This document shows, piece by piece, positions 6,292 through 63,867 of a stretch of DNA of 64,000 nt. The notes under the pieces are model-generated. The model saw only the letters and a program-made list of their open reading frames with translations, ran no database searches and was not told where the DNA came from. The first letter of the stretch is position 1. Each line of letters starts with the position of its first letter. Made by a program: the position numbers and the translations under genes. This DNA comes from Bacteroidales bacterium (GTDB taxonomy: Bacteria; Bacteroidota; Bacteroidia; Bacteroidales; P3), in the NCBI GenBank assembly GCA_017962545.1, contig JAGCVD010000009.1, positions 1 to 64,000 on the forward strand, read 5' to 3'.

Positions 6292-7193
6292 TGGGTCGCT
6301 GTCTGCTCTGTCCGCGTCAGTGCGGCGTCGACCGTGCTGTGGCCGCAGGTTTCTGCGGCGCCACCTCAGAGGTGGAGGTCAGCGCGGTGTGCCTGCACCT
6401 CGGCGAGGAGCCGCCGCTCAACCCCATCGTCAATGTCTTCTTCACGCATTGCAACCTGCAATGTGTCTACTGCCAGAACTGGCAGATTAGTCAAGGTGAA
6501 AGGGGAGAGGTGAAAGGGGAAAGGTGCCCGGTCGACATCCTTGTCGACCGCATCTGTGCCTTGTTGCCGGAGAGTGGCGGGATGCTGGGCTTCGTCACCG
6601 CGGCGCACTACGCCGACCGTTTGCCGGCCTTGCTGGCCACCGTCAGGGAGCGTGGCTTCACGCCCACGGTGGTGTATAACAGTGGCGGCTACGAGAGCGT
6701 GGAGACGCTGCGTGGCTTGGAGGGGCTGGTGGATGTCTACCTGCCTGACTTCAAGTATATGGATTCCACGCTGGCGCAGGCCTACAGCCATGCCGGTGAC
6801 TATCCCGCTGTGGCGCAGGCGGCGCTCCGCGAGATGCGGCGCCAGGTGGGCGGCGGTCTCAAGGTGGATGCCGACGGCCGTGCCTACCGCGGCCTCATCG
6901 TGCGCCATCTGGTGCTCCCCGGAGCCGTCGACAACTCGCTGCGCTGCCTTGACTGGCTGGCCGACGAGTTCCCCTTCGGGCTGCATATGTCGCTGATGGC
7001 GCAGTATTTCCCGCCACGGCCGGGCTTGCCGTCGCCGCTGGACCGTTGCGTCACCGCCGAGGAATATGGCGCTGTGGTGGCGCACGCTGAAGCGCTGGGC
7101 CTCACCGATGGATGGATACAGGAACTGGAGGCCCGCGACAACTACAGGCCCGATTTCGGCAACGCCGACAACCCTTTCAACGCTGAGATATGA
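6291..7193 (+). CDS. PflX-like radical SAM protein
   Basis: Radical SAM protein of the uncharacterised PflX type (COG1313), related to pyruvate formate-lyase activating enzymes. The cluster motif is CNLQCVYC (Cys 54, 58, 61), and the N-terminal cysteines Cys4, Cys7, Cys11 and Cys22 in CLLCPRQCGVDR and GFCG are a hallmark of this family and could hold an extra cluster. ATG 6291 overlaps the upstream TAA; an in-frame TTG at 6285 is less likely. Residues about 68-80 (GERGEVKGER) are encoded by a purine-rich repeat (6494-6524) that looks like an in-frame insertion after the cluster motif. The target is not known; the linked genes on both sides overlap it, so they may be functional partners. Confidence 0.85.
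   Translation: MGRCLLCPRQCGVDRAVAAGFCGATSEVEVSAVCLHLGEEPPLNPIVNVFFTHCNLQCVYCQNWQISQGERGEVKGERCPVDILVDRICALLPESGGMLGFVTAAHYADRLPALLATVRERGFTPTVVYNSGGYESVETLRGLEGLVDVYLPDFKYMDSTLAQAYSHAGDYPAVAQAALREMRRQVGGGLKVDADGRAYRGLIVRHLVLPGAVDNSLRCLDWLADEFPFGLHMSLMAQYFPPRPGLPSPLDRCVTAEEYGAVVAHAEALGLTDGWIQELEARDNYRPDFGNADNPFNAEI
6494..6524 (+). repeat. In-frame purine-rich repeat inside the pflX-like gene
   Basis: GGTGAAAGGGGA and GGTGAAAGGGGAAAGG are near-direct repeats in a purine-only stretch. It encodes a hydrophilic GERGEVKGER segment with no equivalent I recall in the family, and resembles insertions in other genes of this window. Confidence 0.6.
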
Positions 7194-7762
7194 AGTACAA
7201 ACTGGAGATAGAAGATGACTTGTTCGACTTCGAGGGCTGGGCTTTCCTGCACTTCCACACCTCGATGCCGGGTTATGCCTTCGCCGATTGCCTGAACCGT
7301 CTGTACGACTATAGGCTGGCGCGGGTCGACGATATGACGTCGCTCGAGGGTCAGTGGCCCGTCTACCGCTACGAGGATGCCGTGAGCCACCAGATATTTT
7401 TCCTTGTCGAGCGCCCCGCCGCCGCTGTTGACGCCCCATGGGAGGCGGGTGACAAACTGCTCGTTGTCAAATGCGAGAACGCCGAAACGGTGGCGCACCA
7501 CATCTTTGCCGACTTCACCAGCAATGCCGCCGTCGACGAGGCCGACCTGCTGGCGCGTGAGCATGCCGCCCTGCTGGAGGACCTGTTGGCTGAGTTCACG
7601 GTTGTCAATATACTGGACTTCTCCGCGCCTGTGGCCAGCCGCAAGGCAGCCAAGGAGCGTCAGCTGGTGCAGCAGCATTGCGACGGCATACTCGCTTACA
7701 TAGAGCAGCAGCATCTGGACCTCAGCGATGAGGAGCGTATGCGCTTGGAGAGGCTCAGCTAG
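7190..7762 (+). CDS. Hypothetical protein, weakly IPExxxVDY-like
   Basis: A 190-residue soluble protein without signal or membrane segments. The first half (a start like MKYKLEIEDDLFDF, then SMPGYAFADCLNRLYDYRL, then a hydrophobic strand around HQIFFLVE) is reminiscent of the small Bacteroidota IPExxxVDY family, but I do not see that family's namesake motif, so this is only a hint. The C-terminal 40 residues are predicted helical and charged. The ATG overlaps the stop of the PflX-like radical SAM gene in ATGA, so it is translationally coupled to that enzyme. Confidence 0.55.
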   Translation: MKYKLEIEDDLFDFEGWAFLHFHTSMPGYAFADCLNRLYDYRLARVDDMTSLEGQWPVYRYEDAVSHQIFFLVERPAAAVDAPWEAGDKLLVVKCENAETVAHHIFADFTSNAAVDEADLLAREHAALLEDLLAEFTVVNILDFSAPVASRKAAKERQLVQQHCDGILAYIEQQHLDLSDEERMRLERLS

Positions 7763-7786
7763 AATCCCCGGCAATTTGTATTTTAT

Positions 7787-7817
7787 TTTGTGGGATTCAA
7801 ATTTATTTGTATATTTG
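7787..7817 (+). promoter_or_regulatory. Bacteroidota-type promoter for pepD
   Basis: TTTG (7787-7790), a 19-base spacer, then TATATTTG (7810-7817) match the Bacteroidota -33/-7 consensus TTTG and TAnnTTTG. The ATG of pepD follows at 7864. Confidence 0.75.
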
Positions 7818-7863
7818 CACCCACATATCGTTTGGTAATCAATAATCATAAATATTCAATATT

Positions 7864-9321: not shown

Positions 9322-9341
9322 CTCCCCAAAAATCAAACATC

Positions 9342-10082: not shown

Positions 10083-10964
10083 TCAATGAAGAGCCGCAGC
10101 GAGTTGACGCTCGGAGATGTTGCGGTAGTGGTAGGTGGCTACGGGGTGCCCGTCGTCGAGCAGGACGACAAATGGCCGCTGGCCGTAGGTGATGCGCAGG
10201 AAGAGGCCCGCGGGCAGGTCGGCAGGCTCATAGTAATGTATGCGGCTGCTGTCGATGTGGTTGCGCTTGGCGATGGAGCCGAGCTTCTCACGGGTCATGC
10301 GGCAGTAGGGGCAGCCGCGTGTGACGAAGGCCATGAGCTGGTGCCCCTCGGCGAGGCCTTCCTCTTCCAGCACACCGCCGGGGAGGATGCTCTCCTCCAG
10401 CAGCTCGCGGTCGTAGCGGGCCTCCTCGGGGCCGAACATCCAGTTGTCGGGCACCGAGATGCAGAACACCGTCACGGTGACGGCTACCGCGAAGAGGGCG
10501 GAGAGGATGGCTCTGGTGGTTCTGGTTTTTCTAGTTGGACTGGTTTTTCTAGTTGGACCAGATATTCTAGAATAGAGGAGCACCAGCGCTATCAGCAGGG
10601 CGTTCTTGAGGAGCGACTGCACGGGGTTGAGGTCGGCGAGGCGTCCCATGCACTGGCACGAGTCGGTGCGGCCTATCAGGGCGGCATAGCCGAGGAAGAG
10701 CGAGAAGAGGATGAGCAGCAGGAATGCCGCCATGTTGACCCACCGGCGCCACCATCCGAGGGCGACGAACAGCGCCAGCAGCAACTCGGCGACGATGCAC
10801 AGGCGTGCCGCCAGATAGCTGATGTTCAGCGGCAGGAAGCCGTAGGAGAATATATACAACTCAAAGTCGTCGATGGCCACAATCTTGGCCACCGACGACA
10901 CTAGGAACAGCGCCGACAGGAGAACCCTCAGCACTAGGGAGAGCACTCTACTGCCTCTGCTCAT
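10083..10964 (-). CDS. MauE/DoxX-like membrane protein with thioredoxin domain
   Basis: Inner-membrane redox protein of 293 residues. Four hydrophobic helices (about 5-135) form a DoxX/MauE module with the family's CxC in SCQCMGRLADL. A fifth helix (about 152-172) leads to a periplasmic thioredoxin-like domain with the active site CPYC in VTRGCPYCRMTREKL. It likely passes electrons to or from extracytoplasmic thiols. The linker before helix five is encoded by two exact 18-base tandem copies (10523-10558), giving the PTRKT repeats. Its start overlaps the end of a five-Cys lipoprotein gene by 17 bases, which makes those lipoproteins candidate substrates. It is last in a five-gene minus-strand run with ftsK. 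Confidence 0.82.
   Translation of the reverse strand: MSRGSRVLSLVLRVLLSALFLVSSVAKIVAIDDFELYIFSYGFLPLNISYLAARLCIVAELLLALFVALGWWRRWVNMAAFLLLILFSLFLGYAALIGRTDSCQCMGRLADLNPVQSLLKNALLIALVLLYSRISGPTRKTSPTRKTRTTRAILSALFAVAVTVTVFCISVPDNWMFGPEEARYDRELLEESILPGGVLEEEGLAEGHQLMAFVTRGCPYCRMTREKLGSIAKRNHIDSSRIHYYEPADLPAGLFLRITYGQRPFVVLLDDGHPVATYHYRNISERQLAAALH
10523..10558 (-). repeat. Exact 18-bp tandem duplication inside the MauE-Trx gene
   Basis: TGGTTTTTCTAGTTGGAC occurs at 10523-10540 and again at 10541-10558. It keeps the frame and encodes a repeated PTRKT linker between membrane helices four and five. Confidence 0.85.
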
Positions 10965-27520: not shown

Positions 27521-28734
27521 ATTTGATAGATGAAATAAAGGCGCTGGCACATGCACAGCGAGAGGAGGTGATAGAGTGGCGTCGTTGGATGCACCGCCAC
27601 CCCGAGTTGAGCCAGGAAGAGTATGGTACTATGGCCTTCGTGGCTGAGCGGCTGACGGAGATGGGTCTTAAGCCCCGCACTGGCATCGGTGGCACTGGTG
27701 TAATGGCTATGTTGAAAGGAGAAGGGATAAAAGCGAAAGGTGAAAGAGATTATTGTGTGGCGCTTCGTGCCGACTACGATGCACTGCCCATCACTGAAGA
27801 TACTGGCCTGCCATTCTCTTCGGAGAACCCTGGCGTGATGCACGCTTGCGGCCACGATATGCATACATGCTCTTTGTTGGGTGCCGCTAAAATACTCTGC
27901 CAGTTGCGCAACCGACTACAGGGTGACATTATGTTCATCTTCGAGCCTTCGGAGGAGAAATACCCAGGAGGCGCACGTATGATGATGGACGATGGACTTT
28001 TCGAGGAGGTATTGCCAAACGAAATCTACGCATTCCATTGTCTGCCTGAGATGGACTGCGGTCGTGTGGGGATGCGCAAGGGACGCTATATGGCCTCTAC
28101 TGACGAACTCTACTGGACAGTCAAGGGTAAAGGTGGCCACGGAGCTACGCCTCACCTCAGTGTCGACCCTATTGTCGTTGCCAGCCATATCGTAATCGCT
28201 CTCCAACAGGTGGTCTCACGCAATGCTGTCCCCATGATGCCGACGGTGCTTACCATCGGAAAAATACAAGAGCAGGGTGGTCGCACCAACATTATCCCCG
28301 ACACGGTGAAGATGGAAGGTATTATCCGCACTTTCGATCCCGAGTGGCGCCTCGAAGCACATGAGAAGATACGCCATATCAGCACTGGCGTAGCCGAAGC
28401 CATGGGTGCTGAGTGCGACCTCTTTATCGACTACGGATATCCTCCAGTCATCAATGACGATGCCTGTACTCAGCAAGTCCATGACAACTCCTGCGCTTAC
28501 CTTGGTGCCGACAATGTTGAATGGCTTGACTTACGCATGACTGCCGAGGATTTTTCTTTCTATCAGCAACGCATACCGTCGTGCTACTTCCGCATCGGCA
28601 TCCATGAACCCGGTACCCCGTTCTGCAACCTGCATCGACCCAACCTTATCGTTGACGAGCGCAGCCTTGAGTTGGCCAACGGCCTTATCGCATACAATGC
28701 CATCATGGCTTTGAACAATAGAATTAAAAAGTAG
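27517..28734 (+). CDS. M20 family amidohydrolase (aminoacylase/hippuricase-like)
   Basis: Zinc-dependent M20D-type hydrolase of 405 residues that removes N-acyl groups from amino acids or similar amides. Motifs: RWMHRHPELSQEE, ALRADYDALPI, CGHDMHTCSLLGAA (metal His and catalytic region), EPSEEKYPGGARMM with the tandem Glu, and the C-terminal HRP of NLHRPN. Residues about 68-78 (KGEGIKAKGERD) are encoded by a purine-rich repeat at 27714-27752 that looks inserted. It overlaps the flavodiiron gene by 4 bases and abuts the MATE gene without spacing. The physiological substrate is unknown. Confidence 0.9.
   Translation: MNLIDEIKALAHAQREEVIEWRRWMHRHPELSQEEYGTMAFVAERLTEMGLKPRTGIGGTGVMAMLKGEGIKAKGERDYCVALRADYDALPITEDTGLPFSSENPGVMHACGHDMHTCSLLGAAKILCQLRNRLQGDIMFIFEPSEEKYPGGARMMMDDGLFEEVLPNEIYAFHCLPEMDCGRVGMRKGRYMASTDELYWTVKGKGGHGATPHLSVDPIVVASHIVIALQQVVSRNAVPMMPTVLTIGKIQEQGGRTNIIPDTVKMEGIIRTFDPEWRLEAHEKIRHISTGVAEAMGAECDLFIDYGYPPVINDDACTQQVHDNSCAYLGADNVEWLDLRMTAEDFSFYQQRIPSCYFRIGIHEPGTPFCNLHRPNLIVDERSLELANGLIAYNAIMALNNRIKK
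27714..27752 (+). repeat. In-frame purine-rich repeat inside the M20 gene
   Basis: Repeated GAAAGGAGAAGG and GAAAGGTGAAAG units encode a hydrophilic KGEGIKAKGERD loop between two conserved blocks of the enzyme. It resembles the run at 6494-6524. Confidence 0.55.
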
Positions 28735-32440: not shown

Positions 32441-33088
32441 ATGGAAAAGACAGAGAAATTTTGGCAGTGGTTTCAGGACCACAATGAACAGCTGATATCC
32501 CTGGGCGACCTTGACGAGAAAGGACGCCAAGAGTTGGAGAACGCCCTGCAGTACCAGCTCACCAAATACTGCGACGGCCTGACCTACGAGATGGGTGACC
32601 CCACCGCCGACGGACGCACGCTGACTTTCACCGCCGAGGGTGACACCGACCTCTTCCGTTATGTGGTGGAACTCGTCGATGCGGCGCCCGATCTCGACTG
32701 GTGGCAGTTTGTGGCTTTCAAGCAGCCCATGGGCACCGACCTCAAGGTGCGTTTCGACAAGATGCTCTTCGAGACCAAGAAGATGTACTTCCAGCAGCTG
32801 GAGTGTGAAGAAGAACCTGAGATGCTGGGACTGCGCATCGCCGTCCCCTTTGAATCCTCCCCTAAGGTAGGGGAGGTGCCCGAAGGGCGGAGGGGTATGG
32901 ACGACGAGGATTTCCAAGTGGGTGTCTATGTTACCCTCGAGGCCCTCATCGGCGAGTTCGACTGTGCCACCCTCATCGGCTACATGGAGACCGTCCCTGT
33001 GCCTGCCGAGCCTTTCAAGGCGGGTTTCCAGCCGTTGGACGACCTGTCCAAGTTCGTCGAGTGGTTCAAGGCCAAACGTGACGAGTGA
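32441..33088 (+). CDS. Hypothetical cytosolic protein with an inserted repeat
   Basis: A 215-residue protein without signal or membrane segments. It starts MEKTEKFWQWFQDHNEQ, is acidic, and has alternating helix and strand segments (LTFTAEGD, WWQFVAFKQPMG, VGVYVTLEALIG); the pattern recalls DUF695-like proteins but I would not assign a family. A palindromic repeat at 32856-32899 runs in frame and encodes SSPKVGEVPEGRRGMD (residues about 139-154), interrupting a strand region. ATG 32441 is chosen; a longer frame overlaps murB. It is 2 bases after murB and 1 base before the sialidase gene. Confidence 0.7.
   Translation: MEKTEKFWQWFQDHNEQLISLGDLDEKGRQELENALQYQLTKYCDGLTYEMGDPTADGRTLTFTAEGDTDLFRYVVELVDAAPDLDWWQFVAFKQPMGTDLKVRFDKMLFETKKMYFQQLECEEEPEMLGLRIAVPFESSPKVGEVPEGRRGMDDEDFQVGVYVTLEALIGEFDCATLIGYMETVPVPAEPFKAGFQPLDDLSKFVEWFKAKRDE
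32856..32899 (+). repeat. Two-hairpin palindromic repeat, in-frame copy 1
   Basis: A 21-bp near-palindrome (32856-32876, arms CCTCCCCTA and TAGGGGAGG), then a small palindrome GCCCGAAGGGC (32878-32888), then GGAGGGGTATG. The same three-part layout recurs on the minus strand at 63567-63618. Both copies are inside genes and keep the frame. Confidence 0.85.
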
Positions 33089-33089: not shown

Positions 33090-34220
33090 ATGAAAAGGAT
33101 GATGCTTTGGGTCGCTGTAGCGCTGACATTGTTCGTCGGCTGCAGAAAACCTGATGGTGGACCCGAGCCTTCCAAGGAGCCTTATCTCGACAGCGTCTGT
33201 CTCTACCAAATGGGCGACTACGGGTCGCAGTTTTGGCGTATCCCGGCGCTGCTGTGTCTCGACGATGGCACCCTGTTGGCTGTCAACGACAGGCGTAAGT
33301 ACAGCTACAAGGACCTGCCGGAGGATATTGACATCGTCTGCCGCCGTTCGACCGACAACGGCACCACCTGGAGCGAACCGCAGACCATTGTTGCGGGCAC
33401 GGGCTATAAGCAGGGCTATGGCGACCCCGCGCTGGTGCAGTGCGAGAATGGCGACGTGCTTTGCTTTTTCGTAGGAGGTAATGGCCTTTGGGCCTCCACC
33501 GAGGCCGACCCCATCCGCAGTTATGTATGCCGCAGCAGTGACTGCGGCCTCACCTGGAGCGCTCCAGAGGAGATTACTTCGCTCATCTGGGGCAGTCAGG
33601 CGGTGAATGCTGCCTGCCGCAATTACAAGGCCTCCTTCTTCGGTTCGGGCAACGCCCTCCGACTGAGTAAAGGTCCCCACAAGGGGCGCGTGCTGGTGGC
33701 TGCCGCCCTGGGACGCAAGAATGTCAACAAGATCGACAACTTTGTGGTCTACAGCGACGACAATGGACAGACGTGGAATGTCTCCGCCAAGGCCTTCACC
33801 GAGGGTGACGAGGCCAAGCTGATGGAGCTGGCCGACGGCACGGTGCTTGTCAGCGTGCGGCGCAGTGGCGCAAGAGGTTACAACCACTCCGCCGACGGCG
33901 GCGAGACTTGGGGGACCCAGGGCACGTGGCCCGAGATGACTGTCAACGCCTGCAACGGCGACATGTTGCGCTTGGACGACAGCACCTTATTGCATTCTCT
34001 GCCCAACTCCATGCAACGCGAGGATGTCAGCATTTTCATCTCCAACGACGAAGGGGACAGCTGGCACTCTCCGGTGCGGCTGGTCGACGGACCGTCGGTA
34101 TACTCGTCGCTGACGCTCCTGGCCGACGGCGAGATAGGCTGTTTTGTTGAGAAAGGTCCCGACACGGGCTGTGAACTTTGGCTCTACCGTTTCAACCGCG
34201 AATGGCTTTTTAATTTTTAA
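33090..34220 (+). CDS. GH33-like sialidase lipoprotein
   Basis: Exo-alpha-sialidase-like six-blade propeller, 376 residues. The lipoprotein signal ends at LFVGC. The arginine-bearing FWRIPALL block (the FRIP-like motif) is followed by five Asp boxes: STDNGTTW, SSDCGLTW, YSDDNGQTW, SADGGETW and SNDEGDSW. It would remove terminal sialic acids from host glycans, matching the GH20 enzyme elsewhere in the window. ATG 33090 is chosen; an extension from 32922 would lie inside the preceding gene. The last residues (WLFNF) are encoded in a TTTTTAA-rich tract. It may instead be a sialidase-like propeller with another specificity. Confidence 0.85.
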   Translation: MKRMMLWVAVALTLFVGCRKPDGGPEPSKEPYLDSVCLYQMGDYGSQFWRIPALLCLDDGTLLAVNDRRKYSYKDLPEDIDIVCRRSTDNGTTWSEPQTIVAGTGYKQGYGDPALVQCENGDVLCFFVGGNGLWASTEADPIRSYVCRSSDCGLTWSAPEEITSLIWGSQAVNAACRNYKASFFGSGNALRLSKGPHKGRVLVAAALGRKNVNKIDNFVVYSDDNGQTWNVSAKAFTEGDEAKLMELADGTVLVSVRRSGARGYNHSADGGETWGTQGTWPEMTVNACNGDMLRLDDSTLLHSLPNSMQREDVSIFISNDEGDSWHSPVRLVDGPSVYSSLTLLADGEIGCFVEKGPDTGCELWLYRFNREWLFNF

Positions 34221-34230
34221 TTTTTATTTC

Positions 34231-35627: not shown

Positions 35628-35646
35628 GGAGACTGGAGATAAGTAG
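35626..35646 (+). repeat. Intergenic repeat, copy 1 of a 21-bp sequence
   Basis: A 21-base sequence starting AAGGAGAC and ending GATAAGTAG, identical to 61421-61441 except for one base. It is embedded in longer AAGGAGATAAGG-type tracts that reach into the end of purA. Confidence 0.75.
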
Positions 35647-35714
35647 TAAAGGAGATAAGGCAATAGATGCAAGAAAACAGGATATAGCGATACTAAATAA
35701 GAAAACACACCGAT

Positions 35715-36875: not shown

Positions 36876-39800
36876 TTAATTATTAACCAGCGAGCGCATC
36901 TGTTCCAGAGCGTCGGCAATGGTGGGAATGCGGTCAATGGAGAGGCTGAGGCGGTCGGGCGTCTCCTTGAGGTGTACGCGCTGGGGGTTGTTCTGGGCGT
37001 ATCGGATGAGCTGGGCGAAGCCTGTGCTGCTGTAGAAGGGGCTCTCGGGATTGCTCACCAGATGGCATACCATACGACCCTGCCGGAGGATGAGTTTCTC
37101 GATACCGAACTCCTTGGCCATACGGCGCAAGGTGATGGTGCTGATGAGTTCGTTGACACAGGGCGGCACAGGCCCGAAACGGTCCTGCAGCCGGTTGCGG
37201 TAGGCCGCCAGCTCCTCCTCGGAGGTTAGTTCATTTAATTCCTTATAGAGTACCAGGCGCTCGGTGCCAGATGTGACATAGTCATCGGGCAGCAGCACCT
37301 CGAGGTCGGTCTCGATGGTGCATTCGCGCACATACTCTTTGCGTTCCTCGGCTTCGGCGGCGAAGAGCTCTTTGAAGTCGGTTTCCTTGAGTTCGTCAAT
37401 GGCCTCGTTGAGTATTTTGTGGTACATGTCGTAACCTATCTCGGAGATGAATCCTGATTGCTCGGCGCCGAGGATATTGCCGGCGCCGCGGATGTCGAGG
37501 TCGCGCATGGCGATGTTGAATCCGCTACCTATGGAGGAAAATTCCTCGATGGCGCGCAGACGCCGCTGGGCGTCGTCGGTGAGGGTGAGGTAGGAGGGGA
37601 TGAGCAGATAGCAGAAAGCCTTGCGGTTCGAACGACCCACGCGGCCGCGCATCTGGTGGAGGTCGCTGAGACCGAACTGGTGGGCATTATTGATAATCAT
37701 GGTGTTGGCGTTGGGGATGTCGAGGCCGTTCTCGACGATGCTGGTGGCCACCAGCACGTCGATATCACCTTCGACGAAGCGCATCAAGGTCTCCTCGGCA
37801 TCTTTCCCGTCCATACGCCCATGCGCCATCGCCACGCGGGCGTCGGGTACCAGGCGTTGGACGAGACCCGCCATCTCGGGAAGGTTCTCCACACGGTTGC
37901 TGATGAAGAAAGTTTGTCCGTTGCGGCTCATCTCGTAACTGATGGCGTCGCGGATAAGCTCCTCGTTGAAGTCGCTGAGCTCGGTCTCGATGGGTTGGCG
38001 GTTGGGTGGCGGTGTCTGGATAACTGAGAGGTCGCGGGCGCCCATCAGCGAGAACTGCAAAGTGCGGGGGATGGGGGTGGCTGTGAGGGTCAGGCAGTCG
38101 ACGCCCACTTTCATCTGTTTCAGCTTCTCCTTCACGCTGACGCCGAATTTCTGTTCTTCGTCAATGATGAGCAGTCCTAGGTCCTTGAACTTGAGTTCCT
38201 TGTTGGTGATGGCATGGGTGCCTATGAGGATGTCTATCTTGCCACTCTCCACGTCGCGGTATATCTGTGTCTTCTCCTTGGCGGTGCGGAAGCGGTTGAG
38301 GTAGTCGATACGCACAGGCATGTCTTTCAGTCGTTCGCTGAAAGTGTTGTAGTGTTGGAAGGCGAGCACCGTTGAGGGCACAAGCACGGCCACCTGCTTG
38401 GAGTCGCAGCAGGCTTTGAAAGCGGCTCGGATGGCCACCTCGGTCTTTCCGAAGCCCACGTCGCCGCAGACGAGACGGTCCATAGGAGCCTGTTCTTCCA
38501 TGTCTTGTTTCACGGCCAGGGTGGCTTTCATCTGGTCGGGGGTGTCCTCATAGAGGAAGCTGGCCTCCAACTCCGTTTGCATCGAGCCGTCGGGCGAAAA
38601 AGCGAAGCCGCGCGAGGCCTTGCGTTTGGCGTAGAGGGCTATCAGGTCGCGGGCGATATCCTTGACTTGGCGCTTGGTTTTCTGCTTGAGCACCTGCCAA
38701 GTGTTCGAGCCCAGCCTGTTCAGCTGGGGAGCCTCGCCTTCGCGGCCCACGTAGCGGCTGATTTTGTGCAGGCCGTGGATGCTGATGTATAGAACGTCAT
38801 TGTTCTTGTATATCAGTCGTATCAGTTCCTGGCTCTTGCCGTTCTGTGTCACCTTTTCAAGACCGCTGAAGCGCCCCACGCCGTAGTCGATATGAGTCAC
38901 ATAGTCGCCCGGTTTCAGCTCGAAAAGCTCTTTCAGCGTCATTGCTTCATGGGTGGCACGCAGGTCGCGGACGGTGTATTTGTGGTAGCGGTCGAAAATC
39001 TCGTGGTCGGTGAAGCAGAGCACGCACTCATCGTGGTCGATGAATCCGTGGCTTAGGTTGAAAGTTATCAGTTCGCAATTGGCAGTTGGCAGTAATACTT
39101 TCTTTAAACGCTTCTCCTGGCTGTCGTTGCTGACGGTGATGATGAGGCGGTAGCCTTTGTCGGCGTATTGAGAGAGAGTGTCGGTCAGCAGGTCGAACTG
39201 TTTGTGGAACATCGGCTGGGGTTCGCTGTTCACCGTCACCTTCTCGGCTTGCGAGAAATAGTGGCTATTACCGTATTCCACGATGTTCTTCTCCAGCAGG
39301 CTGTGAAGGAATTCGTTGGGTGTGCAGCATAGCTCTTCGGGCTTGGGTAAGGTGCCCAGGATGGGATGAGCAGTGTCGGCTTGACGTTCGTTGTAGCCTT
39401 TTTGCACTTCGCCCAGCAGGTTCTCCATACGGCTGGCGACCATCATCAGACTCTGGGTCCATACAATGTCGTTGCTGCTAAAATATTCTAGGAGAGAGAC
39501 CATCTTGCCTGGCTTGTCTGACGAGTCCGGCATGTCGGACATCCGAGGAACGATATCGATGCGGTCCAGTTGTTTGACGCTGAGCTGGCTTACGGGGTCG
39601 TAGGTGCGCAGAGAGTCGATGCGGTCATCAAAGAATTCGATGCGGTAGGGGAGGTCGGAGGCGAAAGAAAAGACGTCCACTATCCCGCCACGTACAGCAT
39701 ACTGGCCGGGGTCCACCACAAAGTCCTCACGCTCGAACCCCATCTCCTGCAACTGTTCCACCACCTCCCACATGTCGATATTATCCTCTGTCGCTCGACA

Positions 39801-43341: not shown

Positions 43342-46125
43342 GTGAAAGGTTTTATTGAAATCAAAGGGGCAAGGGCCAACAATTTAAAGAGTGTTGACCT
43401 GAAGTTGCCGCAAGGTAAACTTATTGTCGTTACAGGTCTCAGTGGTAGCGGCAAGTCGAGTTTGGTATTCGACACCCTCTTTGCAGAGGGTCAGCGACGC
43501 TATGTCGAAAGCATGAGCTCGTATGCGCGCCAGTTCCTGGGGCGCATGTCGAAGCCCGAGGTGGACTATATCCACGGGTTGGCACCAGCAGTGGCCATAA
43601 GCCAGCGGGTGAACACTGCCAATCCTCGGTCGACAGTGGGCACCCAGACCGAAGTGTATGAGTACTTGAAGTTATTGTATGCCAGAGTAGGACACACGTT
43701 TTCGCCCATTAGTGGTGTGGAAGTGAAACGTCACTCGGTGAGCGATGTGGTGGATTTTATTTTGGGAGTGAAAGGGAGTGAAAGGAATGGTGTGAAGGTG
43801 ATGATTTTGGCGCCGTTGGAGGACAGCAAGGAACGACCTCTGCGGCAGCAGCTGGAAATGTTGCGGCAGGAGGGCTACCAGCGTGTTATGCTGAAAGGTA
43901 CGGTAGCCCGTATTGACGACCTTGAGGGTGTGAATCTCGACGGGGAGGTGTTTTTGGTCGTCGACCGTGTGACGGTGGACCCTGCTGACGACGGGTTGGC
44001 GGCCCGTGTGGCTGAGAGCGTGCAGGCTGCTTTCTTCGAGGGGCGCGGCGACTGCAGGATTGCTGTTGTCGGAGGCAGCACCGCCGATTTCAGCAATCGT
44101 TTCGAGGCCGACGGCATCACGTTCGAGAAGCCTAACCCCAATTTTTTCTCTTTCAACAACCCTTATGGTGCCTGTCCCACATGCCAGGGATACGGCAGCG
44201 TGATAGGCATCGACGAGAATCTGGTTGTGCCCAACAAGAGCCGAAGCATATATGAGAATGCGGTAGTGTGCTGGAACGGCGACAAGATGCAGGATGTGAA
44301 GCGAGAGTTTATTAGGCATGCCGCCGTCATCGATTTTCCCATCCACAAGCCTTATTTCGAGTTGTCTCGGCAGGAGAAGGATGTCCTCTGGCATGGTGAC
44401 GGAGTGTGGGAGGGCATTGAAGGTTTCTTCCGTTGGGTGGAGAGCCAAAGCTACAAGATACAGTACCGTGTGATGCTCAGCCGTTATCGAGGCCGTACGG
44501 TGTGTCCCGATTGTCACGGACACCGTCTGCGCAAAGACGCCGACTATGTGAAAGTGGCCGGCAATAGTATCAGCGAAGTCGTCGACATGCCTGTCGACCA
44601 GGCGCTGCAGTGGGTCTTCTCGCTCGACGAGTGTCTCTCTGCCACCGAACTGAAGGCAACCGACCGGCTGCGTACTGAACTGCGCCACAGGCTGGGATAC
44701 CTTGTCGATGTGGGGCTGTCGTACCTCACGTTGAGCCGTATGAGCAACACCCTCAGTGGTGGTGAGAGTCAGCGCATCACTTTGGCGACCTCATTGGGCA
44801 GTTCGTTGGTGGGGTCAATGTATATTCTCGACGAGCCTTCCGTTGGCTTGCACAGCCGCGATACGGAGCGTCTCGTTGGTGTGCTCAAACAGTTGCGCGA
44901 TTTAGGGAATACGGTCGTCGTGGTGGAGCACGACGAGGATATCATCCGGTCGGCCGACTGGCTGGTGGACATAGGTCCCGGCGCAGGACGTCTGGGTGGA
45001 GAGGTAATCTACAGTGGTCCCATCAATACTCCAGTTTTGAAGTCCCACACTGCGAACTCCCTAACCCTCGACTACCTCGCAGGACGTCGCTCGATTGCAG
45101 TGCCCCAGGAACGCCGCCGGTGGCGCGACCGTATCAGTATTCGTGGCGCCTACGCCAACAATCTGAAGCATATCGATGTGGATATCCCGCTGGGGGTGCT
45201 CACCGTGGTGACGGGTGTCAGCGGCAGCGGCAAGAGCACGCTGATACGGCGCGTGCTGTACGATGTGCTGCAACGCCGCATGGAGGGCAATGACGATTAT
45301 GTCGGCTCTTGCGTCAGCCTCGAAGGCGATGTACGTCGCCTGGCATCGGTCGAGATGGTGGACCAAAACCCCATTGGCCGCTCCTCTCGATCCAACCCCG
45401 CCACCTATATGAAGGTGTTCGACGAGGTGCGTGCCCTCTATGCACAGCAACCTCTGGCCAAAGCACGTGGCTATAAGAGCGGTTTCTTCTCGTTCAATGT
45501 CGAGGGTGGCCGTTGCGACAACTGTGAGGGTGAGGGTTATGTGACCGTGAGCATGCAGTTTATGAGCGACGTGCATCTGCTTTGCGACGAATGTCACGGT
45601 TCCCGCTATAAGGACGAAGCCCTTGAGGTGCTCTACAAGGGTGTCAATATCAGCCAAGTGCTCGACATGACCGTCGACCAGGCCTGTGAGTTCTTCGATG
45701 AAGCGTCTACGCGAAGCATCTACACACGCCTCAAGCCGCTGCAGGATGTCGGTCTGGGCTATCTCAAGCTGGGACAGTCCAGTTCGTCGCTCAGTGGCGG
45801 TGAGGCACAGCGTATCAAGCTTGCCTCCTATCTGGTGCATGGTGAGGCTGCGGAACGTCCTATACTCTTCATCTTCGACGAGCCCTCGACGGGTCTTCAT
45901 TTCCACGATATACAGAAACTCCTGACAGCGTTCGACAGGCTGATAGAACGGGGCCACTCGATTATTGTCATCGAGCACCACCACGATATCATCAAGACGG
46001 CCGACTGGGTGATAGACCTCGGGCCAGAAGGCGGCGAGGGTGGGGGACGGGTGGTCTTCGCCGGAACGCCGGAGGAACTCGTCAAATGCAAAGAGTCTTA
46101 TACGGCAAAGTATCTTAAACTATGA
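43342..46125 (+). CDS. uvrA: Excinuclease ABC subunit A
   Basis: Damage-recognition ATPase of nucleotide excision repair, 927 residues. Two ABC ATPase halves: Walker A GLSGSGKSSLVF and signature LSGGESQRI in the first, GVSGSGKSTLIRR and LSGGEAQRI in the second; zinc modules CPTCQGYG, CPDCHGH and the CDNCEGEG...CDECHGSRY pair are intact. It starts with GTG (43342). A purine-rich repeat (43767-43800) encodes GVKGSERNGVK in the signature-domain insertion region, apparently inserted. The stop overlaps the next gene in ATGA. Some Bacteroidota carry two uvrA copies, so this could be a paralogue. Confidence 0.95.
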   Translation: MKGFIEIKGARANNLKSVDLKLPQGKLIVVTGLSGSGKSSLVFDTLFAEGQRRYVESMSSYARQFLGRMSKPEVDYIHGLAPAVAISQRVNTANPRSTVGTQTEVYEYLKLLYARVGHTFSPISGVEVKRHSVSDVVDFILGVKGSERNGVKVMILAPLEDSKERPLRQQLEMLRQEGYQRVMLKGTVARIDDLEGVNLDGEVFLVVDRVTVDPADDGLAARVAESVQAAFFEGRGDCRIAVVGGSTADFSNRFEADGITFEKPNPNFFSFNNPYGACPTCQGYGSVIGIDENLVVPNKSRSIYENAVVCWNGDKMQDVKREFIRHAAVIDFPIHKPYFELSRQEKDVLWHGDGVWEGIEGFFRWVESQSYKIQYRVMLSRYRGRTVCPDCHGHRLRKDADYVKVAGNSISEVVDMPVDQALQWVFSLDECLSATELKATDRLRTELRHRLGYLVDVGLSYLTLSRMSNTLSGGESQRITLATSLGSSLVGSMYILDEPSVGLHSRDTERLVGVLKQLRDLGNTVVVVEHDEDIIRSADWLVDIGPGAGRLGGEVIYSGPINTPVLKSHTANSLTLDYLAGRRSIAVPQERRRWRDRISIRGAYANNLKHIDVDIPLGVLTVVTGVSGSGKSTLIRRVLYDVLQRRMEGNDDYVGSCVSLEGDVRRLASVEMVDQNPIGRSSRSNPATYMKVFDEVRALYAQQPLAKARGYKSGFFSFNVEGGRCDNCEGEGYVTVSMQFMSDVHLLCDECHGSRYKDEALEVLYKGVNISQVLDMTVDQACEFFDEASTRSIYTRLKPLQDVGLGYLKLGQSSSSLSGGEAQRIKLASYLVHGEAAERPILFIFDEPSTGLHFHDIQKLLTAFDRLIERGHSIIVIEHHHDIIKTADWVIDLGPEGGEGGGRVVFAGTPEELVKCKESYTAKYLKL
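43767..43800 (+). repeat. In-frame purine-rich repeat inside uvrA
   Basis: GGGAGTGAAAGGGAGTGAAAGG is an 11-base near-direct duplication (unit GGGAGTGAAAG). It encodes GVKGSERN in a variable loop of UvrA and matches the style of the repeat in mtaB. Confidence 0.6.
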
Positions 46126-51445: not shown

Positions 51446-51448
51446 AGG

Positions 51449-51476
51449 AATTAAGAATTTAGAATTTAGAATTATG
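51449..51476 (+). repeat. Heptamer array ending in a start codon
   Basis: AATTAAG, AATTTAG, AATTTAG, AATTATG, four 7-base units in tandem. The last three bases of the fourth unit are the ATG of the PspC-domain gene, as seen also at 6060-6087. Confidence 0.85.
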
Positions 51477-52887: not shown

Positions 52888-54303
52888 TTATATCTGCTCC
52901 ATCACTTGTTGCGCCAGCTCGTTGGCACGGGCTTCGGTGGCGGCTTCGCTGTAGATGCGGATGATGGGCTCGGTGTTGCTCTTGCGGAGGTGCACCCAGC
53001 CGTCGGCGAAGTCAATCTTCACGCCGTCGATGGTCGTCACCTTCTCCACGCCGGCCATGCCGTTGTACAGTTTGGCGACCTTGGCCAGCAGGGCGTCGAC
53101 ATCCATGTCGGGCGTCAAGTCCTTGCGGTTCTTGCTGATGATATATTCGGGATAGGTCTTCCTTAAACCGCTTACGGTTAGTTTTTCATTTTTCATTTTT
53201 GCTTTTTCCATTTCCTTGGCCAGTAGCGTGAGGAAGAGTGCCACACCCACCAGGGCGTCGCGTCCGTAGTGCAGGGCGGGATAGATGACGCCGCCGTTGC
53301 CCTCGCCGCCGATGACGGCGCCGGTCTCGCGCATCAAAGTCGTCACATTCACCTCGCCCACGGCGGCGGCGTTGTACTCGCAGCCGGCGTAGCGGCGTGT
53401 GACGTCGCGTAGCGCCCTCGAAGAGGAGAGGTTGCTGACGGTGTTGCCAGGCGTGTGCTGCAGCACATAGTCGGCCACGCTGACCAGCGTATACTCTTCA
53501 CCGAACATCTCGCCGGTTTCGCACACCAGCGCCAGGCGGTCGACATCGGGGTCGACGACGACGCCGAGGTCGCAATGGCTTTCACGCACGCAGTCGCTAA
53601 TCTGCGTCAGGTTCTGGGGGATGGGGTCGGGATTGTGGGCGAAATGGCCCGTGGGTTCGCAGTTGAGTTCAACGACCTCCTTTACACCCAGGGCGCGCAG
53701 CAGGCGCGGGATGGCGAGGCCGCCGGTAGAGTTGACGGCGTCTACGGCTACCTTGAAGTTGGCTTTCTTGATGGCCTCCACATCCACCAGCTCCAGACCC
53801 AGCACGCGCTCGATATGGCGGTCGATCCAGTCCTCCTCGACGGTCACCTGACCCAAGTTGTCAACGTCGGCATAATTGATATCGGTACTCTCCGCCAGAC
53901 GCAGCACCTCCTTGCCTTCGGCGTCGGAGATGAACTCGCCCTTGTTGTTGAGCAGCTTGAGGGCGTTCCAGTGTTTGGGGTTGTGTGAAGCGGTGATGAT
54001 GATGCCGCCGTCGCAGTGGCTGTCGATGACGGTCATCTCGGTGGTGGGGGTGGTGCTGAGACCTGTCTCCAGCACGTCGACACCCATGCCTTGCAGCGTG
54101 CCGACCACGAGGCGGTCGACCATGGCGCCGCTCAAACGTGCATCGCGTCCCACGGCAAGTTTCAGCCTGCGGCCAGGGTTGGCTCCTTTTAGGAAAGTTG
54201 CAAAAGCGGAAGTGAATTTGACGACGTCGAGGGGTGTGAGACCCTCGCCTGCGGGTCCGCCGATGGTGCCGCGGATGCCGGAGATGGATTTGATGAGGCT
54301 CAT
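52888..54303 (-). CDS. glmM: Phosphoglucosamine mutase GlmM
   Basis: Alpha-D-phosphohexomutase, 471 residues, making GlcN-1-P for UDP-GlcNAc synthesis. Catalytic Ser106 in TASHNPKHWN, the metal loop DPDVDRLAL, the sugar-binding GEGNGGVIYP and the C-terminal phosphate loop SNTEPIIRIY are intact. The overall form fits the Bacteroidota GlmM branch; a phosphomannomutase role is a lesser possibility. A segment MEKAKMKNEKLT (53179-53213) is encoded by an AAAAATGAAAAATGAAAA-type repeat, another in-frame insertion. Confidence 0.88.
   Translation of the reverse strand: MSLIKSISGIRGTIGGPAGEGLTPLDVVKFTSAFATFLKGANPGRRLKLAVGRDARLSGAMVDRLVVGTLQGMGVDVLETGLSTTPTTEMTVIDSHCDGGIIITASHNPKHWNALKLLNNKGEFISDAEGKEVLRLAESTDINYADVDNLGQVTVEEDWIDRHIERVLGLELVDVEAIKKANFKVAVDAVNSTGGLAIPRLLRALGVKEVVELNCEPTGHFAHNPDPIPQNLTQISDCVRESHCDLGVVVDPDVDRLALVCETGEMFGEEYTLVSVADYVLQHTPGNTVSNLSSSRALRDVTRRYAGCEYNAAAVGEVNVTTLMRETGAVIGGEGNGGVIYPALHYGRDALVGVALFLTLLAKEMEKAKMKNEKLTVSGLRKTYPEYIISKNRKDLTPDMDVDALLAKVAKLYNGMAGVEKVTTIDGVKIDFADGWVHLRKSNTEPIIRIYSEAATEARANELAQQVMEQI
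53179..53213 (-). repeat. In-frame AAAATGA-type repeat inside glmM
   Basis: TTTTTCATTTTTCATTTTTG on the plus strand is a near-exact 7-base repeat giving KAKMKNEK on the minus strand. It sits in a loop between domains of the mutase. Confidence 0.6.
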
Positions 54304-56537: not shown

Positions 56538-58202
56538 CTAATCGATGCGAGGTATGGCATCCAGCAGGGTCCGCGTGTAGTCGGTCTGCGGATGCGTGAA
56601 GAGGTCGTCGGGAGTACCGCTCTCGACGACCTTTCCTTTTTGCATCACCATGATGCGGTCGGCCATGTAATGGACCACCGACAGGTCGTGGGTGATGAAG
56701 AGGTAGGTGAAGCGGTACTGTTCCTTGAGGTCGTTGAGGAGGTTGAGCACCTGGGCCTGCACGCTGACGTCGAGGGCCGAGACGCTCTCGTCGCAGACGA
56801 CCAGTTCGGGCTGCAGGATGAGGGCGCGGGCGATGCAGACACGCTGGCGCTGGCCGCCGCTGAGCTCATGGGGGTAGCGGCTGTACCAGTCGGGCTGCAG
56901 GCCGACTTGTTCCATAAGACTTATGACTTGTTCGCGGTCTCCTTTGCCATGCACTTTCTGCGGCTCGGCGATGGCGTCGCCTATTGTTATTCTCGGGTTG
57001 AGGGAAGAGTAGGGATCCTGGAAGATAATCTGCAACTTGGGGCGCAGGGCGCGCATCTCGCGGGCTGAGAGGGTGTCGAGGGTGCGGCCACGGTAGCTTA
57101 CAGAGCCCGACGAGTGGTCGATGAGGCGCAGCAGGGCGCGGCCGAGGGTCGTCTTGCCGCAGCCGCTCTCGCCCACGAGGCCGAGGGTCTCGCCCTCCAT
57201 GATGTCGAAGCTCACGCCGTCGACGCCCTTGAGCGTCTGCAACGGCTTGCCGAAGAGGCTTCGTCTGAGGGTATAGGTGACGGAGAGGTCGCGGACTGAG
57301 ATGAGTGGTTGCTGGGGTGAATGGGCGATTTGGGCAGAATGGGATTCATCTTGCCCATCAAGCCCATTAGCCCCATTAAGGAAATCTTCTACTGTCGGCA
57401 GTCTTCTGGGCCGCTCGTCCAGGGGCGGGCGGCAGGCCAGCAGGCCTTGTGTGTAGGGCTGCTGCGGGTGGTGCAGTATGTCGTCGGCGCTGCCTTGCTC
57501 GACGACGTGGCCGCGGTACATGACGAGGATGTCGTCGGCTATTTGGCTGATGACGCCGAGGTCGTGGGTGATGAAGATGACGGCGGTGCCGTGCTTGCGC
57601 TGCAACTGCTTGAGCAGGTCGAGGATGGTCTTCTGTACGGTGACGTCGAGGGCCGTGGTGGGCTCGTCGGCGATAAGTATGTCGGGATTGTTGACGAGCG
57701 CCATGGCTATCATCACGCGCTGCTTCTGTCCGCCGCTGAGCTCATGGGGGTAGCTGTCGAAGATTTTCTCCGGGCGCGGCAGCAGCACTTCTTTAAAGAG
57801 CGCGATAACGCGCTCTTTAAGGTCGAAGGTCGGAGGTCGGAGGTCGGAGTGTGCTTTCATCATTTCAAGCACTTGTGCGCCGCATTTCTGCACGGGGTTG
57901 AGGCTGGTCATGGGCTCCTGGAAGATCATGCTGATGCGGTGGCCGCGGATATTGCGGAAGCCCTCTTCGTCGAGGGCCAGCAAGTTGGTGTCGCCAAGAT
58001 TGGCGACACCTGTGACGGTGGCCTGCTTGGGCAGCAGTCCCATCAGCGCCAGGCTGCTGACGCTTTTGCCGCTGCCGCTTTCGCCCACGATGCCGAGCGT
58101 CATGCCCCGCTGCAGCGAGTAGCTGACATTCTCCACCACCGTCCGTCCGCCAAAGGCAACAGAGAGATTTTTTACCTCGAGTATGGTATTGTCTTTAGTC
58201 AC
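56538..58202 (-). CDS. Double ABC ATPase of a peptide/nickel importer (DppDF-like)
   Basis: A 554-residue protein with two complete ABC ATPase domains, Walker [11 protein letters not shown] and [11 protein letters not shown], signatures LSGGQKQRV and LSGGQRQRV, each with the oligopeptide-transporter C-terminal region ([22 protein letters not shown]). It powers import through permeases not found here. It starts with GTG (58202). Two in-frame repeat insertions lie in it: DLRPPTFD with the adjacent palindrome at 57793-57820, and a spacer between the domains at 57318-57385 ([15 protein letters not shown]). Confidence 0.9.
57318..57385 (-). repeat. In-frame CCCATT-type repeat between ABC domains
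   Basis: GAATGGGCGATTTGGGCAG and later CCCATCAAGCCCATTAGC blocks form an imperfect hairpin in the interdomain linker. On the minus strand they encode [19 protein letters not shown]-type residues. CCCATTA-type repeats are normally intergenic in this group. Confidence 0.6.
57793..57850 (-). repeat. Perfect 12-bp palindrome and GGTCGGA repeats in coding DNA
   Basis: TTAAAGAGCGCG (57793-57804) and CGCGCTCTTTAA (57809-57820) form perfect 12-bp arms with ATAA loop, next to GGTCGAAGGTCGGAGGTCGG-type repeats (57821-57850). They encode [19 protein letters not shown] in the first ATPase domain. Confidence 0.8.
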
Positions 58203-61405: not shown

Positions 61406-61420
61406 TTATCTTTAGTAGAT

Positions 61421-61441: not shown

Positions 61442-61510
61442 ATAAGGCGATACATCTGCCGCAACGGTGCATTGGGCTTGACTACTTAGCTACTCTAATA
61501 TAATGAAAAA

Positions 61511-62128: not shown

Positions 62129-62162
62129 CTTCAGCTGCCACGTATAGGTTGCTACAAATAGG

Positions 62163-62200
62163 AAAAGCCCCCCGAAAGTCGAACTTTCGGGGGGCTTTAT
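62163..62200. terminator. Bidirectional terminator
   Basis: AAAGCCCCCCGAAAGT (62163-62178) pairs perfectly with ACTTTCGGGGGGCTTT (62182-62197) with a CGA loop. It works for the DUF975 gene and, on the other strand, for the lipoprotein gene at 62241-63101. Confidence 0.92.
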
Positions 62201-62240
62201 CGTTGAGGGTGTTTCCCCAATCTATTGGGGAACGATTTTA

Positions 62241-63101: not shown

Positions 63102-63160
63102 TTTTGTGTGATTTTAATTGTTATTGGTTGAGTTCTGACGTTTCAATCCTAAATCAAGTG

Positions 63161-63192
63161 CAAAATTACGAAAATATTTTGATACGACCAAA
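63161..63192 (-). promoter_or_regulatory. Bacteroidota-type promoter (minus) for the lipoprotein gene
   Basis: On the minus strand TTTG (63189-63192), 20-base spacer, TAATTTTG (63161-63168). Confidence 0.7.
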
Positions 63193-63566
63193 AAATATTT
63201 TCTTTGAAGGCTTGAAAACGTGTCGGGAAACGAGGAATGTACTATCTGGAGAGTGAGAAAATACGCTGCGTTGTGTTGCCTGTGCCGTCGGTCACTTTGA
63301 CGCGAAATTCGTTATGTCCGGTGCGTAGTTTTCCTCGGGTATCAATGAAAAGAGTGGCCGTCTTGCCGTCGAATTCGGCCAGTATCCAACTGCCGTTGAG
63401 GTAGCAGTTGTAGGTCTCCACGCCGGCCAGGTTGTCGCCAATCTTCACCTTGAGGGTGGTGGCTTTAAGGGGCTTGCCTTCGCTGAAGTTGACGGGCTGC
63501 ACGGTGGGCGCCGTAGTGTCGGCGGCGAGGGTGAACTCACCCCAGTCGCGTACCGAGGCGGTGTGG

Positions 63567-63618
63567 CATACTCCTCCACCACCCGAAGGGCGGTCCCCCT
63601 CCCCTAACTTAGGGGAGG
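63567..63618 (-). repeat. Two-hairpin palindromic repeat, in-frame copy 2
   Basis: The same three-part element as 32856-32899, on the minus strand: near-palindrome with arms CCTCCCCTA and TAGGGGAGG (63598-63618), ACCCGAAGGGC-type palindrome (63581-63591) and CATACTCCTCC end. It encodes TSPKLGEGDRPSGGGGVC. Confidence 0.85.
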
Positions 63619-63839
63619 TGTTGTGGGTGGTCTTGTAGGCCGAGTATTTGGCGCTGCCGGCTTTGCGTGTCACGCGTACCACCACGGTCTTGTCGACAGG
63701 CACGCCAGGCAGGGAGCCGCGGATGCTCAGCGAGTAGGAGAGGTGGGGCGGAATGTCGTTGACGGTGGGAGCGATGGTGACGGTCTGGTTCGAGACGTTG
63801 ATGTCCAGCTGGTCGTCGGCATAGAGGGTGTGGGGTTTC

Positions 63840-63867
63840 AATTGAAAATTGAAAATTGAAAATTGAA
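63840..63867 (-). repeat. AATTGAA heptamer array x4 breaking the frame
   Basis: Four exact copies of AATTGAA on the plus strand (63840-63867). Seven is not a multiple of three, so each copy gained or lost shifts the frame of the minus-strand gene. A stop occurs at 63838-63840. Confidence 0.9.

Follow-up and report, generated by a model that had tools for sequence, protein, structure and literature searches.

Several systems of short repeats in bacterial genomes resemble the one studied here. Extracts of PMC3733652 describe GTAG/CGTC REPs as small palindromes situated in frame within conserved genes, including uvrA, and report that two Xanthomonas carry different REPs at about the same recB site. 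Rickettsia palindromic elements are about 150 bp long (Ogata 2000 and 2002, as given in extracts of the review PMC10969869). Heptamer repeats have been reported from Calothrix and Xanthomonas/Nostoc (PMC4692102, in extract), and a TAACTGA heptamer repeat from five Bacteroidetes (PMC4679880, in extract). In Porphyromonas gingivalis, the BrickBuilt MITE has a 23-base unit and is always intergenic, according to an extract of PMC4596501.

The window analyzed here, by which we mean the whole stretch of 64,000 nt (contig JAGCVD010000009.1), comes from a genus of uncultured rumen bacteria. In this genus short repeats are mainly intergenic, while some lie in frame within conserved proteins, where the same loops carry different repeats from one species to another. 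A first-pass annotation had listed 11 repeat stretches inside genes of the window, and all 11 were found as described, several of them being recovered independently by TRF. Such motifs were also commoner than composition predicts. Specifically, 464 kb of the window's genome contained 34 exact 7-base arrays where a 4th-order Markov model gives 2.3 (a ∼15-fold excess), and 400 kb of the relative G002 contained 168 against 2.0 (84-fold). Arrays of period 7, 6 and 8 occurred at 73, 9 and 39 per Mb in the window's genome and at 420, 25 and 72 per Mb in G002. The predominance of 7-base tandem units over other periods in both genomes is that of STRR-type heptamer repeats. As the annotation had also stated, the same kinds of repeat lie between genes: 16 of the 34 arrays were outside ORFs or just partly inside, with ORFs making up 93% of the sample. 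Examples from TRF and the 7-base array count, none assigned a strand, are AATTAAG at a gene end (6060..6083), TTTTTAA partly outside ORFs (34207..34226), GAATTTA outside ORFs (51448..51473) and AATTGAA nearly all outside (63840..63867); TRF also found the octamer array TAAGGAGA (35609..35660, no strand). When one heptamer was sought across the class, it turned up in 9 of 295 genomes, counting that of the window, and its reversed pattern, also a heptamer, in 6, so this heptamer is no mark of the class.

It is extremely improbable that chance composition or assembly artefacts account for these repeats. The genomes are metagenome-assembled and the sequence is of low complexity, but the arrays exceed Markov expectation and reversed-pattern controls, the reading frames are open, and near-identical mfd loops occur in separate genomes (for instance G099/G109 and G085/G060).

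A more serious alternative is local slippage only, by which arrays would grow from chance seeds with a 7-base preference and no copying between loci. In its favour, heptanucleotides top the long simple repeats of most genomes surveyed (Mrazek 2007, via an extract of PMC4679880). Moreover, 69 of 116 distinct array units contained the soft motif [AC]A[CT]T, against 35 after permutation, so that unrelated loci could converge. An ACAAATG box recurred beside arrays in the window's genome (5 versus 0.44 expected) and in G083 (7 versus 0.58); having been picked from many flanking 7-mers without correction, it is no more than a hint of a core common to several kinds of array.

Slippage does not lead one to expect that some of the repeats are defined elements, as we observed for an array of 10-base units that has a constant end box and for a dispersed palindrome. 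A non-repeated end box, GGACRAWNG, lay within 100 nt of 55 of 81 decamer arrays but of only 4 of 405 control places; 5 of the 81, and none of the controls, had an inverted box as well, most copies being one-sided. The 10-base motif of uvrA occurred at 17 places in the window's genome (≤2 mismatches; reversed pattern 0), and the palindrome shared by two genes of the window at 16 (≤3 mismatches; 6 exact; reversed pattern 2). All six distinct palindrome copies inspected adjoined a second small hairpin of variable sequence. A scan of contigs for exact 21-mers, with no gene specified, returned copies in the mfd loop of L203, L267 and L268 and in the two ABC sites (L261, L230). The mfd loop of L267 (RUG10805) contained the full form of the decamer element.

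These palindromes could be REP elements moved by a transposase of the Y1 (RAYT) type, with the arrays as their debris. This fits G012 and G002, each of which has three Y1 matches; their samples also contain GC-rich palindromes that follow a single pattern, 19 in G012 and 6 in G002, and some palindromes form REPIN-like inverted pairs; REPs inside genes, uvrA included, are also on record (PMC3733652, in extract). We nevertheless consider it unlikely. Y1_Tnp (PF01797) occurs in 9 of 12 relatives from the same genus. The window's genome (81% complete) gave no match, nor did G006, G008 and G009, three of these four genomes being <90% complete. GTAG/CGTC or their complements were found within 10 nt of the palindrome foot in none of the six distinct own copies, and in G012 the tag was near the foot in 2 of 38 rows (19 palindromes, both strands), which is not the REP pattern. 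Furthermore, most arrays lack palindromic form. Reverse transcriptase PF00078, the sole such family searched, was found in G003, G005, G010 and G012 and was set aside as the copier, being absent from the window's genome (81% complete), G001 and G002.

We next consider what the repeats do to the proteins. Loop positions were judged by how lengths vary among relatives; in glmM and uvrA, alignment to solved homologues was a further guide. Clean extra residues were shown for glmM, uvrA and two other genes of the window. In glmM, a heptamer array (53179..53215, minus strand) adds 27 nt; all seven relatives are shorter and the best solved homologue also lacks the insert. The 10-base array GGGAGTGAAA of uvrA (43764..43800, plus strand, recovered by TRF) adds 12 nt; 9 of 12 relatives are shorter and without the array, and the other three are longer with other repeats. 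The palindromic element, together with its second small hairpin, adds 39 nt in frame to gene 32339 (32850..32894, plus strand), where four of four relatives are shorter and lack it. A member of the same family adds 45 nt to gene 63242-63841 (63567..63625, minus strand), where the single relative found is likewise shorter and lacks it. In a MauE-type gene (10083-10964), an 18-base unit detected by TRF occurs twice in frame (10522..10570, minus strand), and G012, the one relative recovered, is shorter by 4 residues at the repeat. For the purine-rich, repeat-like stretch of the M20 peptidase (27710..27752, plus strand), one of four relatives is shorter, while three have other purine-rich or palindromic DNA, including a palindromic insert common to G002 and G109.

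The annotation's expectation of extra residues relative to related proteins thus holds for glmM, uvrA, 32339, 63242 and the MauE-type gene, and for M20 against one relative in four. It does not extend to the pflX-like gene, mtaB, mfd and both loops of a double ABC ATPase, which relatives possess with unrelated DNA; this is in part the outcome that the annotation itself had named as counting against it, and insertion of extra residues is therefore not the whole story. The pflX-like gene (6285-7193) has an in-frame purine array (AAGGTGAAAGGGGA x2.4; 6493..6526, plus strand, from TRF), and G012, the only relative found, carries another 7-base array at the matching place. A Pfam search of the pflX-like, 32339 and 63242 proteins returned no family, so the annotation's labels for them (pflX-like, murB-linked and M23-like) are putative. 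The repeat-like loop of mtaB (gene 14902-16218; loop 15783..15843, minus strand) is pyrimidine-rich on the coding strand and of variable length among 13 relatives, and the reading frame is open across the whole gene.

The mfd loop (39055..39095, minus strand) consists of imperfect heptamers and is no longer than that of relatives, several of which have other arrays there; their loop DNA differs and is often repeat-like. All 33 mfd loops, the window's included, are free of stops and multiples of three. In several species the units of a single mfd array mostly agree (AACTTTC in G085, G060 and G092; AATTTTC in G002 and G029) and look homogenised in place, which fits slippage. A TTTCAAC-type array common to several species may be old and local. 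On the other hand, slippage does not predict that related species should fill a given loop with different families of unit; G002 and G109, 73-94% alike in aligned pieces, differ in their repeats at two mfd sites.

The double ABC ATPase varies at two sites. Its hairpin-type, repeat-like linker between the two ATPase domains (57310..57380, minus strand) was present in all 31 species aligned, with DNA that differs and in relatives is often repeat-like. At the second site, the palindrome (57791..57819, minus strand) that the annotation had counted as a repeat insert was rejected: it encodes ERVIALFK, which is kept in relatives with other DNA, and is therefore plain coding sequence. The variable part is the adjoining AGGTCGG heptamer array (57820..57849, minus strand; TRF and alignment). 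None of the 31 ABC genes, the window's included, had an internal stop. Apart from this palindrome, the copies agree with the annotation in being in frame, stop-free and in length-variable places. The mfd and ABC sites show replacement rather than simple insertion.

The two halves of these loops matched better within than across species, both in ABC linkers (9.18 versus 5.65; P = 5e-5, the lowest value that 20,000 permutations can give) and in mfd loops (5.95 versus 4.14; P = 5e-4), and the first half was the purine-richer in 31/31 linkers and 28/33 mfd loops. Such arms would be expected of a functional RNA hairpin, or of a purine-then-pyrimidine mRNA stretch at domain boundaries acting for instance in ribosome pausing, with pairing constrained and sequence free. 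Consistent with this, a folding z-score below −2 was reached by 10 of 31 ABC linkers, compared with 8 of 124 controls. This explanation is nonetheless quite improbable, as 21 linkers fall short of z −2, the window's glmM, pflX and uvrA inserts are purine-rich on one strand only, the seven glmM relatives and 9 of 12 uvrA relatives have no insert, purine-first order may reflect protein-level bias, and an Rfam search of the window gave no match.

We also surveyed five species for insertions, defined as residues without counterpart in most relatives. Their conserved genes contained 61 internal non-triplet arrays, of which 25 overlapped or abutted a called insertion (1.24 expected) and 36 lay away from any. 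This automatic survey left the window's uvrA and ABC arrays unmarked, although direct loop comparison shows the uvrA excess. The mean number of 11-mer matches per insertion per 100 kb of intergenic DNA was then compared between the own genome and the four others. Insert DNA clearly matched own intergenic repeats in two of the five species, G002 (147 versus 2.5-7.1) and G012 (15.9 versus 0.5-7.3), which slippage would not lead one to expect; the match was weak in the window's genome (5.7 versus 1.5-4.3), and G083 and G009 had no clear own-genome preference. A 12-mer copy test gave no enrichment in the window's genome (4 of 41 insertions; control 7.4%) or in G009 (0 of 29). The spreading process that the annotation proposed is thus supported, for at least some of the repeats, by the decamer end box, the palindrome family and the dictionaries of G002 and G012, whereas homogenisation within mfd fits slippage. 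Slippage as the sole process is rather unlikely.

We favour, at a probability of roughly 0.6, the reading that very short dispersed elements arise within each genome and survive in tolerant loops that are refilled species by species. On this reading, the genomes of the genus carry families of tandem arrays with 7-, 8-, 10- or 11-base units, some of them arranged as a pair of inverted arms with a short core in between; GC-rich palindromes are a further kind. New copies would come from the own genome's dictionary, dispersal being shown for some families, and could land anywhere or overwrite existing sequence. Once landed, they would lengthen, shorten and homogenise via slippage and fold-back copying, the latter in keeping with the closer within-species match between the two halves of ABC linkers and mfd loops. 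Purifying selection probably purges most genic copies, leaving in-frame, stop-free copies in loops and linkers. The same loops would be refilled with different repeats in different species because tolerance is a property of the protein. Turnover is not fast everywhere, as G002 and G109 have common repeats at uvrA and M20. More tentatively, since arms would remain complementary at a locus even as unit dictionaries change from species to species, composite hairpin elements with array arms and a core box might be made and spread without Y1 or reverse transcriptase, by fold-back template switching during replication, which would keep rewriting the same loops of conserved proteins. Among the papers listed by our literature search, which covered a minority of subscription journals, none described such a composite class.

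With 120 genomes of one genus and the same loops variously filled, this is a natural experiment on new coding sequence, and it bears on the joint shaping of genes by protein tolerance and a process that makes repeats. It is also relevant to the abundance of 7-base repeats in bacteria, a question to which the literature searched gave no settled answer. In practice, low-complexity inserts in such proteins are not necessarily conserved domains or assembly errors. Nor did any of the papers listed in that search treat arrays of short units within Bacteroidales genes as a class of their own.

Compared with known systems, the present repeats resemble intragenic REPs in that they include in-frame palindromes in conserved genes (PMC3733652, in extract). 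They differ from GTAG/CGTC REPs in that the own copies tested lack the tag and short-unit tandem arrays are prominent in this genus, and may differ from RAYT-linked REPs, no Y1 having been found in the window's genome at 81% completeness. Like known heptamer repeats (PMC4679880 and PMC4692102, in extract), they include 7-base tandem arrays that are mostly intergenic with few in ORFs, but there are many units per genome, these differ between species, and the same protein loops are occupied repeatedly. With BrickBuilt they share a Bacteroidales host and a tandem array. In BrickBuilt the array has leader and tail subunits and ends in small inverted repeats, to which the inverted boxes on both sides of 5 of 81 decamer arrays may correspond; unlike BrickBuilt, with its 23-base unit and always intergenic position, they have shorter units and are also genic (PMC4596501, in extract). 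As for Rickettsia palindromic elements, to which the first-pass annotation had compared the repeats, in-frame copies survive in unrelated housekeeping genes (PMC10969869, in extract), and in-frame palindromic inserts without counterpart in relatives occur in 32339 (4/4) and 63242 (1/1). The present elements are mostly shorter, of several kinds and with units that differ between species; the comparison is a fair analogy of outcome rather than one of membership.

All 11 repeat stretches described in the first-pass annotation were found in the window (contig C30 of a 1.95 Mb genome, 81% complete), and such motifs were commoner than composition predicts, for period-7 arrays relative to a Markov model and for the decamer and palindrome relative to reversed controls. 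Specifically, exact period-7 arrays numbered 34 in 464 kb of the window's genome and 168 in 400 kb of the congeneric genome G002, as compared to 2.3 and 2.0 under a 4th-order Markov model. Exact arrays of periods 6 and 8-11 were each rarer than those of period 7, and no exact period-7 array occurred in 80 kb of G009, also of the same genus, or in two genomes of other families (60 kb each). Across the whole genome, the 10-base unit of the uvrA array (decamer) was present at 17 places with at most 2 mismatches (reversed control 0). The palindrome of 32856 and 63567 was present at 16 places with at most 3 mismatches (6 exact; reversed control 2), each reading on both strands, and three of the five exact places inspected fall in ORFs of at least 100 codons. 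Of 116 distinct heptamer units, 69 carry the loosely defined motif [AC]A[CT]T, versus 35 after permutation (maximum 50 in 200 permutations). Cyanobacterial heptamers seem to match this motif as well. Densely packed 8-base CTCCTTAT arrays were also seen in the window's genome (loci L042 17262-17390 and L050 13555), and a tandem repeat with a 48-base unit at 55989-56147 of the window by eye encodes an alanine-, lysine- and proline-rich stretch.

The expectation that the repeats coincide with residues lacking in relatives was borne out at glmM, uvrA and genes 32339 and 63242, where the window is longer than most, and not at the linker of the double ABC ATPase, which all 31 aligned species possess with differing DNA. 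The glmM loop measures 48 nt in the window and 21 nt in all seven relatives, and the extra residues are missing from the best solved homologue as well. For uvrA these lengths are 36 nt versus 24 nt in nine of 12 relatives, the loop of a thirteenth (G011) being short as well; the other three carry different repeats (132 nt in G012, 42 nt in both G002 and G109). Gene 32339 has 57 nt versus 18 nt in four of four relatives, and gene 63242 has 69 nt versus 24 nt in the sole relative found. The M20 loop is 36 nt in the window, 24 nt in G012, a purine-rich 39 nt in G001, and a palindromic 102 nt common to G002 and G109, while the sole relative found for pflX has a different heptamer array. The palindrome at 57793, within the same ABC ATPase gene, had likewise been proposed as an insert; this was ruled out, as it encodes residues conserved among the aligned relatives.

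The ABC linker was stop-free in each of the 31 aligned species (the window's species, 29 others among the 30 best matches in 120 genomes, and G007), with differing and often repeat-like DNA. Its tandem score exceeded the 95th percentile of segments of the same genes in 15/31 species and the 99th in 6/31. The mfd region was matched in 113 of the 120 genomes of the genus set, which includes the window's genome, without an internal stop among the matches listed, and 18 of 33 mfd loops (30 best loci plus L098, L267 and L268) scored above the 95th percentile with the window's mfd gene as reference. Both sets are weighted to close relatives and their loops are non-independent (L268/G054 and G100/G106 are identical).

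We also surveyed partial samples of five genomes: the window's own (464 kb; 159 genes with orthologues in relatives), G002 (428 kb; 128), G012 (437 kb; 154), G083 (340 kb; 149) and G009 (200 kb; 104). These genes contained 76 arrays of period 7, 8, 10 or 11, of which 15 at most 45 nt from a gene end were excluded, leaving 61 (12, 22, 9, 15 and 3, respectively). Residues missing in most relatives were overlapped or abutted by 25 of the 61 (5, 11, 2, 7 and 0), versus 1.24 under random placement. We consider it shown that in-frame repeat copies lie in length-variable loops. Exact tandem runs were present in 3/41, 6/53, 0/34, 3/70 and 1/29 insertions (control segments 0.1-0.3%). Insertions containing a 12-mer with at least three other copies were enriched in G002 (23/53; control 12.7%), G012 (11/34; 10.1%) and G083 (5/70; 2.0%), and not in the window's genome (4/41; 7.4%) or G009 (0/29; 0.1%). 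By these two tests, the majority of insertions are therefore non-repeat.

Insert DNA was matched to intergenic sequence from all five genomes in turn. Expressed as hits per insertion per 100 kb, the preference was clear for two genomes: G002 inserts scored 147 in their own genome versus 2.5-7.1 elsewhere (control 7.6), and G012 inserts 15.9 versus 0.5-7.3 (control 1.5). The preference was weak for the window's genome (5.7 versus 1.5-4.3; control 2.0), G009 inserts (4.9) were barely above control (3.4), and G083 inserts showed no preference for their own genome (3.7 versus 6.7 with G002's DNA). An exact 21-mer of the decamer occurred in 84 stretches among 84,980 species genomes; by title, 78 of the 80 listed are Bacteroidota, one Streptomyces and one Rhodospirillaceae. 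Exact copies were seen in Prevotella histicola (L201), Streptomyces physcomitrii (L253) and a Rhodospirillaceae MAG (L243). The 80 stretches hold 105 occurrences, overlaps counted, of which 59 lie within ORFs of at least 120 codons, some perhaps spurious, and 42 of these 59 are antisense to the ORF. This gene-blind scan recovered the mfd loop (L203, L267, L268) and both ABC sites (L261, L230). When arrays at most 120 nt apart were merged, a non-repeated end box, GGACRAWNG, followed 55 of 81 arrays (control 4/405), and in five of 81 a short spacer and an inverted box came after it (control 0/405). A copy of the full form, with both boxes, occupies a 76-residue loop of the RUG10805 mfd gene (L267) and keeps the frame. 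Since this unique end box is shared, slippage alone is insufficient, and we consider the dispersal of at least two families, the decamer with its end box and the palindrome, to be shown. The full core box was found once in the G002 sample and not in that of the window's genome. At L058 3673 in G002, core boxes GGACAAATG and CTATTGTCC are flanked by arms of a different array, GTAGTTAAA, as if one core were combined with several array dictionaries.

Fold-back architecture was assessed with related species treated as points, though they are non-independent. Purines were richer in the first half of the ABC linker in 31/31 species (45% of control segments), an order that protein-level bias could explain. 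Complementarity between the linker halves (Smith-Waterman) was 9.18 within species versus 5.65 between species (p = 5e-5, the lowest value attainable with 20,000 permutations; at most 1e-4 without the five strongest), and for the mfd loop 5.95 versus 4.14 (p 5e-4). RNA folding z fell below -2 for 10/31 linkers and 8/124 controls. Exact inverted 12-mer partners within 250 bp accompanied 22 of 167 heptamer arrays in G002 (2.4 expected) and one of 34 in the window's genome (0.15 expected). Near-perfect long hairpins with arms of tandem 11-base units were observed in G012 (L076 2001-2109, L076 14160-14240, L079 19778, L102 19727) and the window's genome (L045 19896, L049 6501, L050 11178, L051 18655); the unit differs between the two species and the architecture is common to both.

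Taken together, dispersal within each genome, tolerance of copies in loops and species-wise refilling of these loops is, at a probability of roughly 0.6, the best overall explanation; selection would have purged other copies. It is slightly weakened because the close relatives G002 and G109 (73-94% similarity in aligned pieces) agree at two of the four loops compared. Their main mfd loops carry heptamers versus decamers and their second mfd sites heptamers versus octamers; the uvrA loop has similar octamer-like DNA in both. An identical in-frame palindromic insert was observed in their M20 loops (L096, L192), either kept across speciation or gained alike in both. This common uvrA and M20 content indicates that some copies persist.

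As to how copies may arise, template switching is our preferred candidate, because a single process would unite tandem units, hairpin arms and new copies: a nascent 3' end would switch template on the same strand, on the opposite strand or to a distant template, respectively. Neither the window's genome nor G006, G008 or G009 yielded a Y1 (REP-type) transposase, and no PF00078 reverse transcriptase turned up in the window's genome, G001 or G002; as the window's genome is incomplete, their absence there is no proof.

Our literature search found no report of differing short-unit arrays refilling the same protein loops genus-wide. Related kinds are known. PMC3733652 describes intragenic REPs, with uvrA among the host genes, and two Xanthomonas whose recB genes carry differing REPs at roughly the same position. 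TAACTGA heptamers, some within ORFs and some in Bacteroidetes, appear in PMC4679880, and a Bacteroidales MITE containing an internal minisatellite in PMC4596501. The Rickettsia palindromic elements, to which the repeats had been likened, are a known kind according to a review (PMC10969869).
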